Assembly: GCF_030643825.1 (NCBI RefSeq)
Contig: NZ_CP101717.1
Span: 1,054,001 to 1,118,000 of the forward strand
DNA from: Salinispirillum sp. LH 10-3-1
GTDB lineage: Bacteria; Pseudomonadota; Gammaproteobacteria; Pseudomonadales; Natronospirillaceae
Length of the DNA: 64,000 bases
Direction of reading: 5' to 3'
Shown: positions 32,259-55,915 of the stretch, piece by piece
Numbering within the stretch: position 1 is the first letter of the stretch
Layout of the letters: every line of letters begins with the position of its first letter
Program-made: the position numbers and the translations under genes
Notes under the pieces: generated by a model
The model's database searches: none
Told to the model about the DNA's origin: nothing
What the model saw: the letters and a program-made list of their open reading frames with translations, nothing else

Positions 32259-33464
<1,206 letters not shown>

Positions 33465-33566
33465 AAGAACCTGATCCCATGGTTTTTGTTGGCACGTAAC
33501 CAAATGAAGTTATACTGAATTAATAGTGTAACACCTAACAGTTGAACTATCCGGTGACGAAATACA

Positions 33567-35075
33567 ATGAAGTTTGTACAACGCTTGTCTGTCGTTTCTT
33601 TACTCTTTGCTACCGCATTGGCGTCGCTTGTTGTGGCAGAAGAGTCGATGTGGTTTGGGCAATTGAAGTCCGGGGGCTATTTGTGGGTAGAAACCCCGGA
33701 AGGCTCAACCCTGAAACTCAATGGTTCACCCATCGAGATCAGTGTGCCAAGAACCCTGGTGGGCTTTGGGCGTAATGAATCGGGCGACATTATCCTAGAG
33801 CGCCAGTTGCCCTACGAAGAGCCGAAAATATGGAGTTTGCCGGTTGCGTCGCGCAGTTACCTGGAACAGCGTGTTGAAGGTGTACCGCCTAGAACACTGG
33901 ACCCCTCGCCGGAAGAGTGGGAACGCATGCAGCGTGACTCAGCCGCGCTGGCGAAAGCTCGCCAGTCCGTCACGCCAGACAACACCGGAGTCACCATGCC
34001 CTTTGCATGGCCACTGTACGGTCGTATCACGGGCGTGTATGGCAGTCAACGCTGGTACAACGGGGAACCCTCAACGCCGCACTGGGGTATCGATATTGCG
34101 CGGCCAACGGGTACACCCATACTGGCGCCAGCCGACGGCCGAGTAACCTTGGCGGATGATCTCTTTCTGTCCGGCAAAACCATCTTGATGGATCACGGGC
34201 AGAGCCTCACTTCCTCCTTTTTACACATGTCAGATCTGAAAGTACAAGAAGGCCAATGGGTGCGACAAGGGGACGTCATTGGCTTGGTGGGCTCCACCGG
34301 GCGCTCTACCGGGCCTCACCTAGACTGGCGGATGGACTGGAACGGTGTCCGCATCGACCCGGCACTCTGGGTGCCAGCCATGGACGACGTGTGTGAGATT
34401 AAGGGCTCGGGCGATGAGCTGGTGATCTTGTTGCATGGTCTTGGTCGGACGTCGCGCTCCATGAACGCCATGGCGGACGCCTTACTGGACAACGGTTTCA
34501 GCGTCTGCAACCAGAACTACCCGTCGCGCAACGAAACAGTACAGATGTTGTCATCTTACGTCGCTAGCGCGGTGCAAAAGGCACGCATGGAAGGCAAGTC
34601 GCAGGTGCATTTTGTGACTCACAGTTTAGGCGGCATTCTGGCGCGCTATTACCTGGCCTACAGCAGCCATGAGCTGGACGGGCGGGTGGTCATGTTGGCA
34701 CCGCCGAATCAAGGCAGTGAAATTGTGGATACCTTGGAACAGTGGCCGGGTATTTTTGAGCAGATCATGGGGCCAGCGGCGCGGCAGCTGAGTACCTCGC
34801 CCGAGAGCCTGCCCAATCAACTGCCACCGATCTCCATACCGGTGGGCATTCTGGCCGGTGACCGCAGTTCCGACCCTTGGTTCGACGGCTTATTTGAAGA
34901 GACAGCGAACGATGGCAAGGTCAGTGTGGAGTCCACTCGCTTGCTGACCATGAAAGACCACAAAGTCGTACCGGCAGGGCATACGTTCATCATGAACAAC
35001 CGTGACGTACAGGCGGAGGTGATATCCTTCCTGCGGTATGGGCATTTCCTGAAAGACGAACTTGCCGGCGAATAG
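33567..35075 (+). CDS. Secreted fusion of M23 peptidase and alpha/beta hydrolase
   Basis: This is a 502-residue protein with a signal peptide (cleavage near LVVA-EES). It has an N-terminal domain of about 115 residues, then a LytM/M23 endopeptidase domain (about 145-268) with all four zinc-site residues: His172 and Asp176 (HWGIDIARP), His220 (SSFLHMSD), His251 (GPHLDW). An alpha/beta hydrolase follows from about residue 284: oxyanion LLHGLGRTS, nucleophile Ser353 in THSLGG, candidate acid Asp432 or Asp436 and His472. Both active sites look complete. The frame is continuous, so this is a real fusion, predicted periplasmic. Joint action on peptidoglycan and an ester-linked partner is inference. 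Confidence 0.85.
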   Translation: MKFVQRLSVVSLLFATALASLVVAEESMWFGQLKSGGYLWVETPEGSTLKLNGSPIEISVPRTLVGFGRNESGDIILERQLPYEEPKIWSLPVASRSYLEQRVEGVPPRTLDPSPEEWERMQRDSAALAKARQSVTPDNTGVTMPFAWPLYGRITGVYGSQRWYNGEPSTPHWGIDIARPTGTPILAPADGRVTLADDLFLSGKTILMDHGQSLTSSFLHMSDLKVQEGQWVRQGDVIGLVGSTGRSTGPHLDWRMDWNGVRIDPALWVPAMDDVCEIKGSGDELVILLHGLGRTSRSMNAMADALLDNGFSVCNQNYPSRNETVQMLSSYVASAVQKARMEGKSQVHFVTHSLGGILARYYLAYSSHELDGRVVMLAPPNQGSEIVDTLEQWPGIFEQIMGPAARQLSTSPESLPNQLPPISIPVGILAGDRSSDPWFDGLFEETANDGKVSVESTRLLTMKDHKVVPAGHTFIMNNRDVQAEVISFLRYGHFLKDELAGE

Positions 35076-35121
35076 CCGAAAATGTGAGTGAATAGTGGGG
35101 TAGGGCAGGCGCTTTAGTGCT

Positions 35122-35145
35122 GTAGGGTAGGTGTTCACACCTGCC
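35122..35145. repeat. Dispersed palindromic repeat, copy 2
   Basis: GTAGGGTAGGTGTTCACACC begins a diverged unit of the palindromic family. It faces copy 3 in inverted orientation 8 bp away, so the pair can fold into one large structure. It lies 46 bp past the M23 fusion gene. Confidence 0.75.
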
Positions 35146-35153
35146 AAATTGTC

Positions 35154-35176
35154 GCGGGTGTAAACACCCGCTCTAC
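35154..35176. repeat. Dispersed palindromic repeat, copy 3
   Basis: The unit has the exact core GCGGGTGTAAACACCCGC followed by TCTAC, inverted relative to copy 2. It sits 41 bp before the 3' end of efpL, which converges on the M23 fusion gene. Confidence 0.9.
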
Positions 35177-35216
35177 GGATTTTATCAAGGTCATCGGGCG
35201 GAAGAGCGCAGTAGCT

Positions 35217-51843: not shown

Positions 51844-51868
51844 GGCGGGTGTAAACACCCGCCCTAAA
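51844..51868. repeat. Dispersed palindromic repeat, copy 4
   Basis: The exact core GCGGGTGTAAACACCCGC is followed by CCTAAA, and beyond this a second small palindrome, CCCGCCCTTTAGGGCGGG on the minus strand. The element lies at the 3' end of the MATE gene and includes its stop codon. Confidence 0.9.
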
Positions 51869-54286: not shown

Positions 54287-54309
54287 GCGGGTGTAAACAC
54301 CCGCCCTAC
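54287..54309. repeat. Dispersed palindromic repeat, copy 5
   Basis: The exact core GCGGGTGTAAACACCCGC is followed by CCTAC, in the 75-bp gap between the MBL-fold gene and the deacetylase gene. Confidence 0.92.
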
Positions 54310-55892: not shown

Positions 55893-55915
55893 GCGGGTGT
55901 AAACACCCGCCCTAC
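55893..55915. repeat. Dispersed palindromic repeat, copy 6
   Basis: The exact core GCGGGTGTAAACACCCGC is followed by CCTAC, 7 bp after the trxC stop and 24 bp before the rhomboid gene. It is identical to copy 5 over 23 bp. Confidence 0.92.

Follow-up and report, generated by a model that had tools for sequence, protein, structure and literature searches.

An M23-like domain with a variant metal site joined in one reading frame to a lipase-type alpha/beta hydrolase in Salinispirillum sp. LH 10-3-1 and its relatives

Peptidases of the M23 (LytM) type bind zinc through the His and Asp of an HxxxD motif and the second His of an HxH motif, while neither the first His of HxH nor another His some 30 residues ahead of it is a ligand (PMC9662197). 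In Campylobacter jejuni Pgp3 (PDB 6JMX and others; NCBIfam NF052530), a single enzyme of 274 aa, these motifs are H168xxxD172 and HxH249 (PMC6978369). The closest solved sequence to the M23-like half described in this study is a putative peptidase M23 of Pseudomonas aeruginosa (PDB 2hsi; E 2.1e-42, 34% identity), which differs from the fused protein in being unfused and in having the canonical HxH (GPHMHW). The degenerate LytM factors EnvC and NlpD also have the M23 fold and, like the protein examined here, depart from the zinc motif, although in the latter all remaining site residues are invariant. On the hydrolase side, BlEst2 of Bacillus licheniformis and lipase B of Candida antarctica combine the alpha/beta fold with a Ser/Asp/His triad, but they share just 16-22% identity with the fused protein and are not joined to a peptidase, and their substrate class is not transferable. 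Closer relatives are the stand-alone secreted hydrolases of Alcanivorax, Rhodobacteraceae, Verrucomicrobia and others, which belong to the same family (43-52% identity) and have the same triad but are single-domain proteins, most of them with their own signal peptide.

A conserved two-domain reading frame

The gene studied here begins with ATG and lies in a window of 64,000 nts, i.e., the whole stretch of DNA that was analyzed. Its outline is as follows:

33567..35075, + strand: coding sequence of the fused protein (502 aa), an open frame with 10 in-frame fused homologs
33567..33641, + strand: probable Sec signal peptide, residues 1-25, read from the sequence, with cleavage near VVA/EES
32259..33503, − strand: ackA (acetate kinase), divergent neighbor of the fused gene, kept alongside it in 11 of 11 genomes

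A preliminary description of this locus had presented a secreted 502-residue protein combining an M23 endopeptidase and an alpha/beta hydrolase in a single frame. Both the frame and the N-terminal Sec-type signal were found in the sequence, and the product would be exported to the periplasm. Searches with the full protein and with each half matched both parts, by profile and by fold, to the superfamilies proposed for them. Among 58 relatives searched, the same stop-free, in-frame fusion is present in 10 further genomes at 46-66% identity, with no case of a split frame; these genomes fall in the same family as the host and include Natronospirillum, Saccharospirillum and Gynuella. Four fused genomes were named through a second collection (Natronospirillum operosum, another Natronospirillum, Saccharospirillum salsuginis and a Gynuella assembly). 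The joining of two genes through faulty assembly or a sequencing error is therefore ruled out as the origin of the fusion, its probability being vanishingly small. Thus, the fusion is genuine and has been kept within its lineage (11 genomes). In the host's family as a whole (n = 22 genomes), the fusion occurs in 11 members, a separate hydrolase in two and no hydrolase in nine. The joining of two known superfamilies is an ordinary kind of event, yet this one is conserved and apparently undescribed: no mention of an M23/hydrolase fusion was found in the open-access literature searched, although one may exist elsewhere.

The putative metal site of the M23-like half

The N-terminal half contains the following features:

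33642..34058, + strand: Pgp3/2hsi-like N-terminal region, residues 26-164, assigned from the alignment of the AlphaFold2 model of residues 27-280 with Pgp3
34077..34361, + strand: M23-like domain, residues 171-265 (PF01551)
34080..34094, + strand: HxxxD motif, His172 to Asp176, the two retained putative metal ligands, invariant in the M23 halves compared below
34224..34226, + strand: codon of His220, the predicted catalytic, non-ligand His (His216 of Pgp3), invariant in the same set and placed by the Pgp3 alignment
34317..34331, + strand: HxDxR motif, placed by alignments, with His251 (non-ligand), Asp253 replacing the zinc-ligand His, and Arg255

Pfam Peptidase_M23 (PF01551) matches residues 171-265 with an E-value of 1.6e-29 (102.4 bits against a cut-off of 28.7). 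The AlphaFold2 model of residues 27-280 has a pLDDT of 83.6 when this half is modeled alone (about 30 in the full-length model, in which only five alignment rows cover it). The model aligns with Pgp3 (6jn1) at Z 23.5 over 235 residues (rmsd 3.8), spanning both the N-terminal region and the M23 domain, and with 2hsi at Z 21.5; the match to EnvC has Z of about 16-18. Compared with Pgp3, the fold is common, sequence identity is 26% over 235 residues, and HxxxD and both catalytic His residues are kept, but Asp253 takes the position of the Pgp3 ligand His249. The score against the Pgp3 model NF052530 is 128.5 bits, below its cut-off of 300.

Profile alignment pairs His220 and His251 with Pgp3 His216 and His247, both non-ligands, and Asp253 (GPHLDWR) with His249, the third zinc ligand. 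The preliminary description had listed His172, Asp176, His220 and His251 as a complete LytM zinc site; according to this alignment, the list comprises two ligands and two catalytic His residues and overlooks the Asp in the place of the third ligand. Profile, LytM/M23 fold and HxxxD motif all agree with M23, whereas HLD stands in place of an HxH whose second His is a ligand. Since Asp253 occupies the position of a ligand His, the N-terminal half is best classified, on sequence grounds, as an M23 homolog with a variant site and not as a canonical M23 peptidase. The 11 fused proteins all have Asp at position 253, as does each of the 19 stand-alone relatives taken from the same order; other M23 paralogs of the same genome keep the canonical HLH.

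We further compared 76 M23 halves from the family, order and class. None of them varies at His172, Asp176, His220 or His251, an invariance that is partly built in, as the collecting script required the patterns HxGxD and GPHx[DH]. Asp253 is present in 56 of them, every one of which also has Arg255; the other 20 have His253 and never Arg255, with G, S, N or T there instead. A phylum-wide sample, which partly overlaps with the 76 proteins, contains 23 D-R and 7 H-G cases. On the maximum-likelihood tree, the D/H difference at position 253 amounts to two changes, which, read from the HxH side, are one origin of HxD and one reversion to HxH. The reversion is in L219 (genome G279): this HxH protein sits within the HxD part of the tree, and both residue 253 and residue 255 are back to the canonical type. 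The HxD motif is thus not peculiar to the fusion and, judging from these alignments, marks a large, widespread proteobacterial subfamily spanning many families. It was overlooked in the preliminary description, and it reaches further and holds more interest than the fusion itself. No mention of an HxD variant of M23 was found in the open-access literature searched; it may exist elsewhere.

M23-like sequences with the HLD variant were also observed on two contigs classed as viral (L220:3001-3438 and L221:3001-3132), where Glu replaces Arg after the Trp. With these two HLDW-E cases, a biased sample retrieved with the pattern TGPHLDW, an absolute pairing of Asp253 with Arg255 was rejected.

The conservation of the site residues suggests a metal site that has been altered but still works, not one in decay, and Asp253 may bind the metal. 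A precedent by analogy is offered by the aspzincins (M35 type), which are working zinc peptidases with two His and one Asp as ligands (PMC3890501); their fold and motif are unrelated, and the set in the fused protein would be one His and two Asp. We tentatively propose, as a reading that has somewhat less than an even chance, that the large HxD subfamily of proteobacteria consists of active peptidoglycan peptidases ("aspzincin" LytM proteins) using Asp as third ligand, tied to the Arg two residues on, and that in one lineage such a peptidase has been joined to a periplasmic lipase, so that a single enzyme would act on both the wall and an ester-linked envelope component.

In the main competing reading, the HxD site has ceased to cut, and the M23-like domain, catalytically dead or weak, binds peptidoglycan and thereby anchors a working esterase to the wall. 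Such an anchor would fit the replacement of a defining zinc ligand by Asp253 throughout the fused proteins, and degenerate M23 folds are known as binding partners (PMC9662197). A non-catalytic state does occur nearby: at the ackA locus of one relative (G005; L252:333-1799, − strand), a protein of 488 aa with a frame that is still open has a clearly homologous M23-like domain (hhalign 99.7%) that has lost every site residue, with His172, Asp176, His220, His251 and Asp253 all gone. However, in the 56 HxD proteins, drawn from many families, these five residues and Arg255 are invariant, a pattern that makes little sense unless the site carries out some chemistry and that counts against an anchor. 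Moreover, the stand-alone HxD proteins have no esterase to hold. On balance, we consider an anchor role unlikely, though a serious competitor to a catalytic HxD site. In the G005 protein, the C-terminal 190 residues matched no hydrolase profile, even at E 100, which leaves the idea of a decayed hydrolase unsupported; the protein appears to be a pseudoenzyme with an unexplained second part.

With M23 enzymes defined by HxxxD and HxH, a constrained HxD subfamily in which Asp253 always goes with Arg255 among the cellular sequences sampled would mean that sequence filters labeling M23 proteins "active" or "degenerate" misfile a large group, and the subfamily provides a direct test of the role of that ligand.

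The hydrolase half and the domain joint

The remainder of the protein consists of the linker and the second domain:

34362..34412, + strand: interdomain linker, residues 266-282, including Cys276 (codon 34392-34394), which together with Cys314 is invariant in the fused proteins
34413..35048, + strand: alpha/beta hydrolase (lipase-type) domain, residues 283-494, assigned by Pfam, a model block with pLDDT mostly above 90, and fold matches
34623..34625, + strand: codon of the nucleophile Ser353 (HSLGG), invariant
34911..34913, + strand: codon of the triad acid Asp449 (NDGKV), invariant
34980..34982, + strand: codon of the triad base His472 (GHTFIM), invariant

In the full protein, Pfam Hydrolase_4 matches residues 283-416 (E 5e-8, 32.9 bits against a cut-off of 27; E 5.6e-9 with the separated half), and Abhydrolase_6 (30.8 against 26.3) and DUF676 (26 against 20.3) also exceed their cut-offs. 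The modeled domain matches lipase BlEst2 at Z 24.9 (rmsd 2.5, 216 residues) and Candida antarctica lipase B at Z of about 23. The hydrolase with Ser353, an Asp and His472, which had looked complete in the preliminary description, could be confirmed: the acid is Asp449, and all three residues are invariant in 24 aligned relatives and again in 53. They follow the order of the alpha/beta hydrolase triad, with the nucleophile at the turn after a strand (T-H-S-L-G-G). The lipase and esterase subfamilies of NCBIfam that were tested all stay below their curated cut-offs (VolA/Pla-1 phospholipases, BioH and EstD score 14-19 against 207 to 600). The C-terminal half is accordingly described as a predicted lipase/esterase-type alpha/beta hydrolase, for which the fold match alone gives no substrate class. 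As a guide to the substrate, we looked for a neighbor shared by the stand-alone hydrolases and found none across 13 loci in the order.

Cys276 and Cys314 are invariant in 11 of 11 fused proteins, whereas 11 of the 13 stand-alone hydrolases of the order have Cys at 285 and 339 instead. It looks as if a disulfide has moved to the domain joint, if these residues are indeed bonded.

Origin and possible function of the fusion

In the M23 tree, a single clade (98/93) holds the 11 fused proteins together with four unfused ones nested among them; the hydrolase tree likewise places the fused proteins in a single clade (SH-aLRT 86). Three of the four unfused M23 sisters occupy the same ackA locus; these genes (L013, L014 and L024) lack the hydrolase domain, and two of them retain a tail that resembles the linker and has an orphan Cys, terminating in WVPDLATLC or WVPNLATLC, compared with WVPAMDDVC in the fused linker. 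On the M23 tree alone, three gains cost the same as one gain and two losses. Because of the single hydrolase clade, the shared joint, the leftover tail and the swapped cysteine pair, a single fusion followed by loss of the hydrolase in sister lineages is favored, as a tree-supported and not a proven history.

Gene fusion is often taken as a sign of joint function. Among 352 members of the class, no association between M23-type and hydrolase genes was detected: an M23-type gene is present in 31 of the 48 hydrolase-carrying genomes and in 211 of 352 genomes overall (Fisher p 0.53). Of 80 named loci of the closest hydrolase relatives, four are fused to an M23-like domain, all of them in this lineage, and at the other 76 no M23-like gene lies in the frame or in the stored flanks (up to 6 kb). 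With neither co-occurrence nor neighborhood outside the family, functional coupling is weaker than the fusion alone would suggest, and with the hydrolase also missing from sister lineages, any joint function would be dispensable. The same observations, including the absence of the hydrolase at the same locus in sister lineages, are what one would expect if two unrelated secreted enzymes had been joined by chance, each doing its own job without cooperation. Yet the fusion has been retained at 46-66% identity in 11 genomes, and the invariant Cys276/314 pair at the joint, where most stand-alone proteins have the other pair, looks as if the joined form had adapted. A chance joining without cooperation seems to us quite improbable.

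Starting from the observed fusion, its conservation, the two folds and the conserved residues of both sites, we infer activities, substrates and cooperation as follows. The protein would be exported to the periplasm and act there as a two-domain envelope hydrolase. Its Pgp3-type M23 part would bind peptidoglycan stem peptides, and the variant metal site (His172, Asp176 and Asp253, with His220 and His251 as acid/base) would cut or trim D-Ala-containing stems or cross-links. In the same compartment, the lipase-type domain would use Ser353, Asp449 and His472 to hydrolyze an ester (or thioester), probably in a lipid or an acylated envelope component. Both enzymes would earlier have been separate secreted proteins; a single event at the ackA locus, in a family ancestor, would have joined them, and several sister lineages would afterwards have lost the hydrolase domain. 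We give this scheme of paired M23 and ester cleavage, including its single fusion and later losses, about an even chance of being correct. It is supported by the fold shared with Pgp3, which is an active D,D-endo/carboxypeptidase (PMC6978369), while peptidase activity is uncertain because the third zinc ligand is Asp instead of His. The suggestion in the preliminary description of a bifunctional enzyme cutting cross-links and an ester is upheld for the fusion and the folds, but cutting of cross-links may not be assumed, because at one zinc ligand the peptidase half does not conform to what defines M23. The fusion amounts to a construct provided by nature that brings wall and lipid/ester chemistry together in the periplasm, and it can be compared with split, lost and degenerate forms that occur naturally at the same locus.

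In addition, a REP-like intergenic palindrome, GCGGGTGTAAACACCCGC, was observed directly downstream of the fused gene (35119-35179, core 35154-35171). Four exact copies are present in the window, the other three at 51845-51862, 54287-54304 and 55893-55910. When up to one mismatch is allowed, the genome contains 26 copies, compared with none for the reversed control. The copy at the fused gene folds into a long hairpin (z -4.5).
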